A stretch of 31,620 nt of DNA from a virus. A program made the position numbers and the translations under genes. The stretch covers positions 1-31,620 of IMG/VR virus record IMGVR_UViG_3300027836_000026; one strand, written 5' to 3'. This document shows, in pieces, positions 14,432-28,095 of the stretch (position 1 is the first letter of the stretch; every line of letters begins with the position of its first letter). The notes below the pieces were generated by a model that saw nothing but the letters and a program-made list of their open reading frames with translations, was not told the DNA's origin and searched no databases.

Positions 14432-15145
14432 ATGCTTTTACAGCCAAAAAATTGGGCCGTCTTTCAACATTACAAAGACCGTTGCCCACCATGGATCAAA
14501 CTCCATCGTGACCTCCTTAACGACCGTGTGTTTATATGCTTGCCACTTGCTAGCAAGGCGCTTGCACCTTTGCTTTGGTTGCTAGCATCAGAATCTAAAG
14601 ACGGTACTTTTGATGGCTCATTGGATGAGCTAGTGTTTCGGTTGCACATCACACCTAAAGACTATCAAGATGGCATTAAGCCGTTGATTGATAAAGGTTT
14701 TTTTGTTCTTGCTAGCGGAGTGCTAGCAGATAGCTATCAAGATGCTATCCCAGAGACAGAGAGAGAGGGAGAGACAGAGAGAGAGGTAAAGACGGAAAAG
14801 AGGCAGATAAGCAATCGCGGTTCGCGTTTGCCAGCAAACTTTGTTTATCCAAAAGAGTGGGCTGATTTTTGTTTACAAACAAGACCTGAACTTAATTTGC
14901 AAAACACGTTTGACCAGTTTAAAGATTATTGGATTGCTCAACCTGGACAAAAAGGTGTGAAGCTTGATTGGGAAGCAACATGGAGAAATTGGGTGCGTAG
15001 ACAATCTGCCCCAAGAACAGGCTTTGTCAAACCATTGACCCCTGCTGAACGAGCAACCAACATTGCTCTTGGTAGACCAGCAGACCAACGACTACTTACC
15101 CCTGAAGAACAAGCTGAACGGACTAAACGGATTGCAATGCGATGA
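14432..15145 (+). CDS. Phage replication initiator / helicase-loader protein
   Basis: This is a 237-residue protein. Residues 15-95 (PPWIKLHRDLLNDRVFICL, later GSLDELVFRLHITPKDYQDG and LIDKGFFVL) look like the winged-helix N-terminus of phage replication (O-type) proteins. A charged Glu/Thr/Arg linker follows at about 107-125. The C-terminal block LPANFVYPKEWADFC, then NTFDQFKDYWIAQPG and DWEATWRNWVRRQ, is DnaT-like, a domain used in ssDNA binding and helicase loading. A DnaB-like helicase lies one gene downstream. The DNA encoding the linker carries an iteron array, as in lambda O. AAGG precedes the ATG. Confidence 0.75.
   Translation: MLLQPKNWAVFQHYKDRCPPWIKLHRDLLNDRVFICLPLASKALAPLLWLLASESKDGTFDGSLDELVFRLHITPKDYQDGIKPLIDKGFFVLASGVLADSYQDAIPETEREGETEREVKTEKRQISNRGSRLPANFVYPKEWADFCLQTRPELNLQNTFDQFKDYWIAQPGQKGVKLDWEATWRNWVRRQSAPRTGFVKPLTPAERATNIALGRPADQRLLTPEEQAERTKRIAMR
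14547..14811. other. Probable replication origin inside the initiator gene (iterons plus purine-biased tract)
   Basis: GCTAGC or GCTATC recurs at 14711, 14722, 14733 and 14744, an exact 11-base period, so it is not a codon-frame effect. Two more copies sit upstream, the perfect 10-bp palindrome TTGCTAGCAA at 14547-14556 and TTGCTAGCAT at 14579-14588. Directly after the array, 14752-14810 is almost all purine on the plus strand (six pyrimidines in 59). Iterons followed by a strand-asymmetric tract inside the initiator gene mirror lambda ori within O. Initiator binding is inferred. Confidence 0.6.
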
Positions 15146-15489
15146 AAGGCCATCAACCACTCATCCACATGAGGATGTACGGCAAAGCTCCTCAAGCAGT
15201 CACCATTGAAGACCACAGGTCCTTGAACAGCCATGATTGGCATCTCTTTGGTGAAACCCCCACTATCAGTGTTTACGGTGATGAGCTATATGACATCGAC
15301 TTGCGTTTTTGTGTTGACTTGATTGTGAGCATTAGTAGTTTTTCAGAGACAAGAGCGAAAACACTGTTTTTACTTGCAAAAAGTGCAAAAGCTAGGGTTA
15401 TCACTAGTTGTGTGCTGATTCCTGATGCTCCACACTGGATGCAGACAGGTTGGTCTGACATACACATACAAGCACATACAAGCACTTAA
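15142..15489 (+). CDS. Conserved phage hypothetical protein
   Basis: This 115-residue protein starts in an ATGA overlap with the initiator. It has a beta-rich N-terminal half (MRMYGKAPQAVTIEDH, WHLFGETPTISVYGDEL) and an alpha/beta C-terminal part (LRFCVDLIVSISSFSETRAK, then a helix and ARVITSCVLIPDA). I have seen proteins of this pattern between initiator and helicase genes of similar phages, without a known function. Position and coupling suggest a replication accessory role. Confidence 0.6.
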   Translation: MKGHQPLIHMRMYGKAPQAVTIEDHRSLNSHDWHLFGETPTISVYGDELYDIDLRFCVDLIVSISSFSETRAKTLFLLAKSAKARVITSCVLIPDAPHWMQTGWSDIHIQAHTST

Positions 15490-15503: not shown

Positions 15504-16484
15504 ATGATTATCAACAAAGATACAGTTGATTTTGCTCTTTACATGAAAGAGACTGACGCTCAGGCAAAGGTCAAGAGTGCTTTCATCTATTCTGAAGCAC
15601 TGAAAAACAAGCTCCGATTGAAGAAGTCGGTGAACCCCATCGTTTTGCCTTGGTACGGACAGAAGGACAACTTCGAGTTTCGCAAGGGTGAAGTGACCAT
15701 CTGGGCAGGACAGAACAGTTCAGGCAAGTCACTGGTGACCTCTCAGATTGCTTTGTCCTTGATGGGCCAAGGTGAGAAGGTAGCCATTGCGTCTTTCGAG
15801 ATGAAGCCTGTCACTACGCTACAGCGCATGGCAAGGATGTGGATAGGGATGAACCCTATGGCTCCTGAGTTCCAGACTGATGAGGGTTTTAAATCCATTG
15901 ACGACCTGTTTGACCAGTTTAGCTATTGGACTGATGACAAGCTTTGGTTGTACGACCAAATGGGTGCAGTTGACCAGGATGTGATTATCGGAATGTGCAG
16001 GTACTGTGCAAAGGAGCTAAGTATTGGTCACATCTTTATTGATAACCTAGCCACTTGCGTTATGGGTGAAGACGACATGTCAGGTCAAAAGAACTTTGTA
16101 TCTGAGTTGATTAACATTGCTCGTGATTACAACGTCCATATTCACTTGGTTCACCATTTGCGTAAACCATCGAACGAATACGCTATCCCCAACAAGTACG
16201 ACACCAAGGGATCAGGTGCGATTGTTGACCTTGTGGACAATGTCTGGATGGTTTGGAGAAATAAGGAAAAAGAGGACGAAGTCAAAGATATTGGTCCTGC
16301 ATCAGCGAAGTTTCATGATGCTGACCAGATGTTGTTTTGCCGTAAGCAAAGGAATTATGAGGGATCTGCTAACGGTGAACCGACTATCAAGCTTTGGTTT
16401 CATTTGGATGCACAGCAATATTTGGAGAGAGCTGGTGATGACACTATGTTCTTTCCTAACTGGCCCCACACACGATCAGGGTAA
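15504..16484 (+). CDS. DnaB/T7-gp4-like replicative helicase (RecA fold, no primase domain)
   Basis: This is a 326-residue helicase. A short N-terminus precedes Walker A GQNSSGKS (residues 69-76), the SFEM motif with the likely catalytic Glu99, and Walker B HIFIDN with Asp180. The H3/H4 region has HIHLVHHLRKP (212-222), then GSGAIVDLVDNVWMVWRN and the late CRKQRNYEG. This is the C-terminal half of DnaB-type hexameric helicases that unwind 5'-3' using ATP. The N-terminal collar domain is much reduced, so priming presumably relies on host DnaG or another protein. No strong Shine-Dalgarno sequence precedes the ATG. Confidence 0.88.
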   Translation: MIINKDTVDFALYMKETDAQAKVKSAFIYSEALKNKLRLKKSVNPIVLPWYGQKDNFEFRKGEVTIWAGQNSSGKSLVTSQIALSLMGQGEKVAIASFEMKPVTTLQRMARMWIGMNPMAPEFQTDEGFKSIDDLFDQFSYWTDDKLWLYDQMGAVDQDVIIGMCRYCAKELSIGHIFIDNLATCVMGEDDMSGQKNFVSELINIARDYNVHIHLVHHLRKPSNEYAIPNKYDTKGSGAIVDLVDNVWMVWRNKEKEDEVKDIGPASAKFHDADQMLFCRKQRNYEGSANGEPTIKLWFHLDAQQYLERAGDDTMFFPNWPHTRSG

Positions 16485-25956: not shown

Positions 25957-27535
25957 AGCCAGTGATTACATCCTTCCGATTTACAAAGATCGGGCGCTAA
26001 AGCATTTGATTAAGTTGGCTGGAGGTAAGGCTGCTATCAAGCACCTTGATTCTGAACAGCTTAAAAAGATGAAAGACGCTAGGGATGTAATCGCCAAAGA
26101 CATGCAGTACAACACCTTGAAGTGGTTTAGACCCTTCAAGTACCAATCTGAGTTCTTTGAAACTGGCTCTCGCTTTACCCGTAGGGGAATGATTGCCGCT
26201 AACCGTGCTGGCAAAACAGTAGCTTCTACTTATGAGGCTGCTTATCACCTGACAGGCAGATACCCCAAGAACTGGAAAGGCAAGGTTTGGGACAAACCCA
26301 TCATTGCCATGTGTTCTGGTGAATCCTGGGAGCAGGTGGCAAAAACACTGCAAAGCAAACTGCTTGGATGTGATGACATCAAGCAATCGTACAAATTAGG
26401 AACAGGCTCCATCCCGCTTGAGTGTATTGACGATAAGTCATACCGCACAGATGGGGCCAACGTCCTGTCTATTGAAGTCTGGCATATCTCTGGTGGCAAA
26501 TCAAAACTCTACTTCTCCAACTACACACAGCAAGTGCGTCATCTGCAAGGTTTTGAACTTGACCTTGTTGTCTTGGACGAGCAACCACCAGACGAGATCT
26601 TCTCGGAGCTTGTTGTCCGTACCGCACAAAGGAACGGGCAGGTATTGTGTTCATTTACCCCACTCAAGGGCATGTCAGGACTTGTTCGCAAGTTCTGGGA
26701 CAAGATAGAAGGCTACACCCATGTCCGTGTAACCTGGGACGACATCCCTTTTGAAAACGAGTGGAATGAGAAGTTCTTTAGCCAAGAAGAACGTGATCAA
26801 CTGTCTCGAGACTTTATGCCGTGGGAGCGTGATTGCCGAATGAAAGGCATCCCCCTGGTTGGCAAAGGCGTGGTATTCCCACTACTTAGCTGGCCTACCT
26901 ACAAAGCAATTGATGTTGACCTGAAGAGCAACGAGAAGATGGAACGACTGATCTCATTTGACTTGGGCATTAAGAATGACCCAACGGTGATCAGCTTCTT
27001 CTTTCGGGATCCTGTGGAAGAGGTCATCTACCTGCACCGACAGATCAAGGTGGCTCAAGGCGAAACCCCAGACGAGTACGTCCATTACTTGATGGACAAA
27101 GACACCAAGGGTGTTCCTATTGCCCTGCCCCATGATGCAACCCAAGCAGGACGGTACACTTTGACAGAACAATCGGTGCGTGAGGTGTTTGAGGACAACT
27201 ATGGCCTAAACTGCATCGCAGGTGCTATATTGAACCCAGTGAACGACCAAGGCAAGGTAACCAACCATAAGTCCTACGGAATCAATATAATGCGGCTAGG
27301 CATGGAGCGTGGCACATTTAAAATAAATGAGTCTTGCGTGGATTTTTTGGATGAATCAAGAAACTATGCCATTGACGAAGCTGGACGATTTAGTGATCCC
27401 GATGACCACATTGACTCTGCTCGAATTGGTATTCTGGCTTTGATTCAGGGTCATGGAGAATCTATGGTTAGCCGAGCAAACGCATTCCAATACCGTAGAC
27501 CAACAGCCGTTGATGGCAAGGTGCAACGAATATGA
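25943..27535 (+). CDS. terL: Large terminase subunit (packaging ATPase and nuclease)
   Basis: This 530-residue protein is chosen to start at the ATG at 25943. The ATPase has a Walker A ANRAGKT (86-92, with Lys91), Walker B LDLVVLDE (Asp212, Glu213) and the coupling motif SFTPLKG near 237. The nuclease begins at ISFDLGIKNDPT with Asp340 and closes with SDPDDHIDSARIG near 490, giving the acidic cluster of an RNase H fold. It drives DNA into the capsid and cuts concatemers. The class (P22/T7-like, possibly headful) cannot be fixed from sequence alone. The stop overlaps the homing nuclease start (ATGA). Confidence 0.93.
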   Translation: MAKSEASDYILPIYKDRALKHLIKLAGGKAAIKHLDSEQLKKMKDARDVIAKDMQYNTLKWFRPFKYQSEFFETGSRFTRRGMIAANRAGKTVASTYEAAYHLTGRYPKNWKGKVWDKPIIAMCSGESWEQVAKTLQSKLLGCDDIKQSYKLGTGSIPLECIDDKSYRTDGANVLSIEVWHISGGKSKLYFSNYTQQVRHLQGFELDLVVLDEQPPDEIFSELVVRTAQRNGQVLCSFTPLKGMSGLVRKFWDKIEGYTHVRVTWDDIPFENEWNEKFFSQEERDQLSRDFMPWERDCRMKGIPLVGKGVVFPLLSWPTYKAIDVDLKSNEKMERLISFDLGIKNDPTVISFFFRDPVEEVIYLHRQIKVAQGETPDEYVHYLMDKDTKGVPIALPHDATQAGRYTLTEQSVREVFEDNYGLNCIAGAILNPVNDQGKVTNHKSYGINIMRLGMERGTFKINESCVDFLDESRNYAIDEAGRFSDPDDHIDSARIGILALIQGHGESMVSRANAFQYRRPTAVDGKVQRI

Positions 27536-28095
27536 ACAATTTTTACATTTACGTGCATACAAAAACAACTGACAACAGCATTTTTTATGTTGGTCGTGGA
27601 GTTGGTCGTAGATGTACAAATGTGAAAAATAGAAATGCCCATTGGAACAACATTGTTGCCAAGCATGGATTTTTTTCAGAAATCATTGAAAGCAAATTGA
27701 CTTCTGATGAGGCAAATGAAAGAGAAATGTTCTGGATAAAAAACTTTCGAGATTCTGGAAATCAGCTTTGCAACCTTACTGATGGCGGAGGCGGATTGGC
27801 GGGAAGATCTCGTCCAGAATCTGAGAAGCAAAAGATAAGTACCGCATTGACTGGAGTGAAGAAATCAGAGCAAATGCGTGAAAAATTGCTTGGCAACAAA
27901 AACTCGCTTGGAAAGCTTCACTCAGATGAAGCCAAAGAAAAGATGTCATTGGCCTTAAAAGGCAAGCCGAAAAATGAAGAACACAAAGCAAAACTAAGCC
28001 AAGCACTGAAAGGAAGACCCCTGTCTCCCGAACGCCGTGCTAAAGTTGTGGCTGCAATTTTGGCAAGAAAAGCCAAAAAAGATATGGGGATTTAA
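27532..28095 (+). mobile_element. GIY-YIG homing endonuclease with NUMOD3 repeats
   Basis: This is a 187-residue product. The N-terminus MNNFYIYVHTK, then IFYVGRGVGRRCTN, is the GIY-YIG core, with Arg22/Arg26-27 candidates and an EREMFWIKNF helix carrying the catalytic Glu. The C-terminal 90 residues have three or more DNA-binding NUMOD3 repeats (KISTALTGVKKS, EKMSLALKGKPK, AKLSQALKGRPL). It is coupled by ATGA to terL and lies two bases ahead of the portal gene, so it invaded a packaging cassette without an intron. It would spread by cutting related phages; it is not expected to be needed for growth. Confidence 0.9.

Follow-up and report, generated by a model that had tools for sequence, protein, structure and literature searches.

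The gene at positions 14432 to 15145 of the window, that is, the whole analyzed stretch of 31,620 nucleotides of the viral record IMGVR_UViG_3300027836_000026, very probably encodes a replication initiator and also contains the replication origin of the phage, which would be bound by the gene product. Phased direct repeats (iterons) lie within the coding sequence of the initiator and are conserved as DNA, the pattern by which an intragenic iteron origin is recognized. We infer that the protein binds to these repeats, that the DNA opens and that replication starts at this site. The features of the window are as follows.

14432 to 15145, plus strand: replication initiator gene, 237 aa (open reading frame, PHROGs matches, AlphaFold model).
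14549 to 14586, plus strand: iteron array A, with GCTAGC at 14549-14554, GCTTGC at 14560-14565 and GCTAGC at 14581-14586, offsets 0, 11 and 32 (sequence).
14669 to 14710, plus strand: AT-rich stretch ending in ...GGTTTTTTTGTTCTT, directly 5' of array B, a candidate unwinding region (GC content compared with codon shuffles).
14711 to 14749, plus strand: iteron array B, with GCTAGC at 14711-14716, GCTAGC at 14722-14727, GCTATC at 14733-14738 and GCTATC at 14744-14749 (sequence).
14750 to 14788, plus strand: purine-rich tract CCAGAGACAGAGAGAGAGGGAGAGACAGAGAGAGAGG, with fixed codons, common to both iteron classes and encoding a disordered linker (junction comparison, codon counts).
15504 to 16484, plus strand: DnaB/RecA-type replicative helicase-like gene (PF03796 DnaB_C, E 2e-13; phrog_239 DNA primase/helicase, E 3.6e-60).

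The four hexamers of array B, reported in the earlier note at 14711, 14722, 14733 and 14744, are read directly in the sequence and follow each other in exact 11-bp steps. The two further copies that it described upstream of array B are present as TTGCTAGCAA (14547-14556) and TTGCTAGCAT (14579-14588), and we add to them a third copy, GCTTGC at 14560, phased 11 bp after the first upstream GCTAGC (14549). A single array had been proposed; array B stands as such, but a second one, array A, is located about 160 bp upstream, within the sequence coding for the DNA-binding domain, and both lie inside the initiator gene. Over the whole window GCTAGC is not enriched (5 found versus 4.75 expected), and four of the five fall in the 714-bp initiator gene. 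For the window gene alone, 5 of 5000 synonymous-codon shuffles reached the observed 4 exact copies of GCTAGC within the first 420 nt, and 49 of 5000 reached a four-copy chain with 11-bp steps and at most one mismatch per copy. The signal in the window alone is moderate and becomes decisive only with the relatives, which were therefore needed.

GCTAGC-like words are found almost throughout 80 IMG/VR relatives at gene positions 118, 129 and 150 and at 280, 291, 302 and 313. The distant phage phiPLPE carries them at gene positions 118/129/150/198/280/291/302/313, phage Cr-LKS3 has a third array at 198/209/220/231, and the same holds for prophages or contigs of Variovorax, Bradyrhizobium, Micavibrio, planctomycetes, Desulfopila, Mesorhizobium and others. 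The exact 11-base period claimed beforehand applies to the steps in the window, but across the relatives the spacing is better described as one turn of the helix, 10-11 bp with multiples close to 10.7. The Mesorhizobium locus L217 alternates 11- and 10-bp steps (280/291/301/312), array A of locus L193 advances by about 10.5 bp per step (118/129/139/150), and in 36 divergent genes the distances between hexamer pairs peak at 11, 21/22, 32/33 and 43/44 bp, that is, in helical phase.

A second iteron class has GATATC in this location, likewise in 11-bp steps; it is found in the Xanthomonas phage PBR31, in MW202462, in the Limnohabitans phage DC33 and at about 60 IMG/VR loci. The consensus words of the two classes, YGCTAGCR and YGATATCA, differ at one position per half-site. 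In a tree of the N-domain, the GATATC-class sequences cluster with a single class change (few columns, moderate support), and, as judged from these sequences, the iteron class covaries with the N-domain clade. Residue 14 is Tyr in 36 of 36 GCTAGC-class and Phe in 19 of 19 GATATC-class representatives; because of common ancestry, this difference remains a lead and no proof of DNA contact. Some loci depart from the usual layout. In a Paramagnetospirillum prophage (L199), a single gene holds two full GATATC arrays of three copies each, at gene positions 170/181/192 and 271/282/293. GATATC arrays with 11-bp steps, followed by purine-rich DNA, also occur at L467:1200-1260 (five copies) and L503:200-230 in genes for which the A1 profile detects no N-domain; here the iterons may have arisen convergently or may have spread to other initiators. 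At L392:1269-1320, five to six phased GCTAGC/GATAGC copies are crossed by no open reading frame, with no N-domain gene in the stretch fetched, and this array is possibly an intergenic version. Phage DC33 (L622, PQ492659.1) is a 39-kb record labelled Inoviridae in the database, a label that does not fit its size and is probably a taxonomy error.

That selection acts on the DNA and not through a protein repeat, as the earlier note had argued, is borne out by 36 divergent genes of the GCTAGC class (representatives with less than 75% identity). These contain 134 exact hexamers versus 18.3 (sd 3.7) in synonymous-codon shuffles preserving protein and codon usage, and 114 lag-11 hexamer pairs versus 14.0, counts that are not independent events since the relatives share ancestry, the exact ones being somewhat inflated because the hexamer itself served to assign the classes. 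GCTAGC translates to Ala-Ser in one frame and to Leu-Ala in another, and contains TAG within the third. Phased GCTAGC copies are exact in 43 of 73 and 54 of 71 cases in the two permissive frames and in 0 of 41 in the TAG frame, which instead has 26 copies of GCTTGC and 10 of GCAAGC. GATATC, stop-free in all frames, is exact in 19/23, 14/18 and 19/21. In the window, the third copy of array B (GCTATC at 14733) is read in the frame that would turn GCTAGC into a TAG stop, and the avoidance of such in-frame stops accounts in part for the GCTATC-type copies. Across the relatives, this third iteron encodes 12 distinct peptides (RLQ, CYQ, CKQ, GKQ, CQQ and others), and a word with at most one mismatch to GCTAGC is found there at a frequency of 0.76 versus 0.19 expected. 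The comparison with related phages that had been called for thus shows phase and hexamer kept while peptides vary; loci L174 and L180 have even moved iterons 3 and 4 to another frame, with an altered peptide and the motif retained.

Both iteron classes end in the same CYAGAGACAGAG purine tract, the last iteron running on into CCAGAGACAGAG or CTAGAGACAGAG in either class. The codons of the tract are nearly fixed: Glu is encoded by GAG 230 times and by GAA 27 times (300 and 316 elsewhere in the same genes), Thr by ACA in 124 of 126 cases (89 of 367 elsewhere), and Arg by AGA in 21 of 22, with no such preference elsewhere in these genes. Selection at the DNA level acts on the hexamer, on the helical phase and on the purine tract. 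On the other side of array B, the 40 nt directly 5' of it have a GC content of 0.475 in 27 GC-rich relatives versus 0.532 (sd 0.008) in codon shuffles, and the dip seen against shuffles in GC-rich phages extends from about 65 bp before to about 85 bp after the start of the array. The T-rich stretch before array B and/or the purine tract are candidates for the opening region. In L218, a Nitrospira relative, gene positions 264-350 hold GCTAGC copies and then a pyrimidine-rich tract (CTCTTCTCTTCTC), the purine strand being reversed.

The arrays are nearly restricted to initiator genes among the IMG/VR matches listed: in two scans for three-copy arrays, 110 of 120 and 103 of 120 contigs have the array in an open reading frame with this N-domain, and some of the exceptions among these matches are other initiator-like genes or simple tandem repeats. 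An IMG/VR search with the N-domain of phiPLPE alone yielded no confirmed relative. The N-domain is also found fused to an HNH nuclease (L183:2001-3038, L200:2998-3969 and L207:194-1276), and the three fusions carry neither iterons nor purine tract; they are a natural control indicating that the array is no by-product of coding for the N-domain. By analogy with ICP1 Odn, these fusions may be origin-directed or homing nucleases. Most matches in an IMG/VR search for further fusions were plain HNH genes, and the search also brought up a divergent N-domain clade. This clade (L550-L560 and L563; KIKNWEKFNLY..., e.g. L555:3385-) has a GAGAAGAGAAGA purine tract after the N-domain and no iteron array. 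Like this clade, three relatives without HNH (L203, L221 and L222) are devoid of clear arrays, and the homolog from the Methylophilales phage Venkman has neither array nor tract, all of which speaks against an origin in the initiator gene. De novo searching of the array-less relatives brought up no third iteron class, only the purine repeat.

The initiator is laid out as a predicted N-terminal winged helix (codons 1-95), a disordered linker (about 97-130) and a DnaT/primosomal-like C-domain (about 131-195), and in the AlphaFold model the N-domain (1-95) is predicted with confidence, residues 97-130 are disordered and the C-domain follows. Array B and the purine tract together code for the disordered linker. 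The match to phrog_26426 (replication protein, E 9e-32) covers residues 1-138 and that to phrog_3992 (primosomal protein, E 8e-16) residues 116-196, the C-domain also matching phrog_1408 (E 1e-10). Judged by these matches, the C-domain qualifies as a putative DnaT/DnaD-type primosomal domain; the structure of the DnaT C-domain (2ru8) aligns to it with a Z of 3.7 only. It is common to initiators of mycobacteriophages and Pseudomonas phages, whose matches begin only at residue 127-129, so that N- and C-domains are exchangeable. For the N-domain model, the closest structures are N-domains of plasmid RepA initiators (5kbj, 4pql, 4pt7 and 4pta, Z 6.8-7.3; next N-domain match 4.3), Z values of 5-7 being the range where the tool warns of a possible common fold only. 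The model of a GATATC-class N-domain reaches the same RepA family with Z 5.2-5.9, tied with LexA, DnaB and DnaD N-domains, so that the resemblance of the predicted winged helix to plasmid RepA_N/DnaD domains is suggestive only. A sequence-profile search of the PDB gave a weak DnaD match (2vn2, E 0.27) and otherwise unrelated ones, and the N-domain had no match in the plasmid collection. No Pfam family matched the window protein at E<=0.1, and RepA_N (PF06970) was absent from the matches of this protein and of 15 family members at E<=1; the RepA_N search of the source genome was uninformative, as control genomes gave no match. Because the profile tests failed, we do not claim membership in lambda O or RepA_N.

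The helicase-like gene of the window follows downstream, and genes for a helicase, a helicase loader or a primase-helicase are found downstream of the initiator in several relatives. Between initiator and helicase, an open reading frame at 15142-15489 has no PHROGs match and shares 4 bp with the end of the initiator gene. The GC-skew check proposed at the outset placed the minimum of the detrended cumulative skew about 1 kb or less from the initiator gene in 4 of 4 genomes, but these minima coincide with divergent transcription and are confounded with gene direction. Farther along the window, between the terminase and portal genes, the open reading frame at 27532-28095 looks by eye like a GIY-YIG homing endonuclease.

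The arrays might have arisen without any role as an origin. The DNA repeat could be a codon by-product of a conserved peptide (LAS..VLA..Q.A), and some copies do encode the same dipeptides (Ala-Ser, Leu-Ala); yet codon shuffles that preserve the protein abolish the signal, the third iteron is retained under its 12 peptides, and neither the avoidance of the TAG frame nor the frame shift in L174 and L180 has a protein explanation. Constraint at the protein level, refuted on these grounds as a sufficient explanation, is thus very improbable, and a protein repeat and codon bias were likewise considered and rejected as sources of the signal. Least probable of all is chance, or the shared ancestry of a random repeat: the four-copy chain of the window gene was indeed reached in 49 of 5000 shuffles, but the phase is kept in 36 and 19 divergent genes of the two classes, including prophages of several bacterial phyla, which refutes this explanation.

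Other functions for a DNA site have also to be weighed. It is unlikely, if less so than any other alternative, that the arrays are operators through which the initiator or a Cro/CI-like regulator controls transcription of the early operon, the origin being elsewhere. Palindromic hexamers resemble operators, and in Cr-LKS3 and PBR31 the gene belongs to an early operon beside repressor genes. However, the arrays lie 120-320 bp inside the gene, away from the promoter, they keep the helical phase over three to five copies before a conserved purine tract, and they covary with the initiator's own N-domain. The roles of operator and origin could coexist. ParR binds one-turn repeats at parC of plasmid R1, and partition sites with 11-bp direct repeats in helical phase are known, which lends some credit to a partition, incompatibility or packaging site bound by another protein in a ParR/parC-like manner. 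Such a site is quite improbable here, given that no partition gene was noticed beside the arrays, that the iteron class goes with the initiator's N-domain and that, among the matches listed, the IMG/VR arrays are nearly confined to the initiator gene.

For an origin carried by the initiator gene itself, a sequence of events can be proposed. The initiator would be produced, as the open reading frame and protein families suggest, and its N-terminal winged helix would bind the 8-bp palindromic iterons (YGCTAGCR), one unit per turn, as phasing and covariation suggest. At array B, several protomers would line up along the same face of the helix, array A forming a second cluster. In the weakest step of the scheme, neighboring AT-rich and/or purine-rich DNA would be melted by the complex so assembled. 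A linker that the origin itself encodes would tether the C-terminal DnaT/DnaD-like domain, and this domain would then recruit the helicase encoded just downstream, as the primosomal family and the neighboring genes suggest. A wider proposal, possible though on balance doubtful, is that this is a widespread and hitherto undescribed kind of phage origin: a portable cassette of winged-helix N-domain, one-turn intragenic palindromic iterons and GAGACA tract, on which an initiator filament would form with one unit per turn on one face and then enter the purine tract. Helicase-recruiting C-domains would be exchangeable, and specificity would have switched between TGCTAGCA and TGATATCA, which differ by one base in each half-site; nucleases reusing the N-domain (the HNH fusions) may have exerted the pressure to do so.

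The origins of most environmental phages are unknown, and with the signature described here (GCTAGC or GATATC every 10-11 bp and a CYAGAGACAGAG tract in an initiator gene) sequence alone suffices to propose one for hundreds of phages and prophages from Proteobacteria, Planctomycetes and other groups. The signature is also an unusually clean case of one DNA stretch being both a protein code and the presumed binding site of that protein, in which the conflict between coding and binding is visible, a near-perfect site being used where the perfect one would be a stop codon. The two natural specificity classes within one fold open the recognition between origin and initiator to direct testing. The nuclease fusions, for their part, hint at a weapon aimed at origins, as ICP1 Odn is.

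The iterons of phage lambda measure 18-20 bp. The likeness to lambda O, drawn in the earlier note, is apt as a working comparison, but with no Pfam match the protein is not classed as a lambda-O homolog. The two systems have in common intragenic iterons, a helicase-recruiting gene nearby and a variable number of iterons, and the region to be opened that flanks the lambda iterons has a candidate counterpart here. Lambda has 4-6 longer iterons beside an AT-rich tract, whereas here 8-bp palindromes recur every 10-11 bp in two or three arrays, and are thus not iterons of the lambda kind (long, about two turns); unlike in lambda, one array lies within the code of the DNA-binding domain and a purine GAGACA tract follows. 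In ori-lambda and the origins of Stx phages, the iterons bound by the initiator are located in the middle of its gene and vary in number (PMC7466680). In the staphylococcal plasmid pSK41, the origin is central in rep, a RepA_N gene, and encodes the linker between an N-terminal winged helix that binds boxes and a DnaD-like C-domain (PMC5703833). Our system has counterparts to these in a proposed origin within the initiator gene, a predicted linker that this origin would encode, a predicted winged-helix N-domain and a putative DnaD-like C-domain, and its N-domain model has RepA N-domains as its closest structures; pSK41 differs by its four Rep boxes with A-tracts and its family of mainly Firmicutes plasmids, whereas PF06970 is undetected here. 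In the Vibrio PLE, the RepA_N-like N-domain of RepA covaries with the origin, and the ICP1 nuclease Odn borrows this domain and cuts the origin (PMC7145576, PMC8263062). This reuse of an N-domain by a nuclease parallels our N-domain-HNH fusions, known by their sequence only, but PLE iterons are about 30 bp and intergenic, and Odn is discussed with GIY-YIG nucleases while the partner here is HNH. The iteron plasmids RK2, F, P1 and R6K have iterons of mostly 17-22 bp, about two turns, in separate origin regions (PMC4980987); they also use direct repeats as initiator sites and show cooperativity that depends on helical phase, but the unit described here spans one turn and lies inside the gene. 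Neither an origin with 11-bp iterons nor one with GCTAGC words in an initiator gene was found in the literature searched, which mostly did not extend to subscription journals, and the paper on the phiPLPE group makes no mention of iterons. Intragenic origins as such are known, and what seems new against that literature is the use of one-turn, 8-bp palindromic iterons in two or three arrays, combined with two classes of specificity and a purine tract that is conserved.
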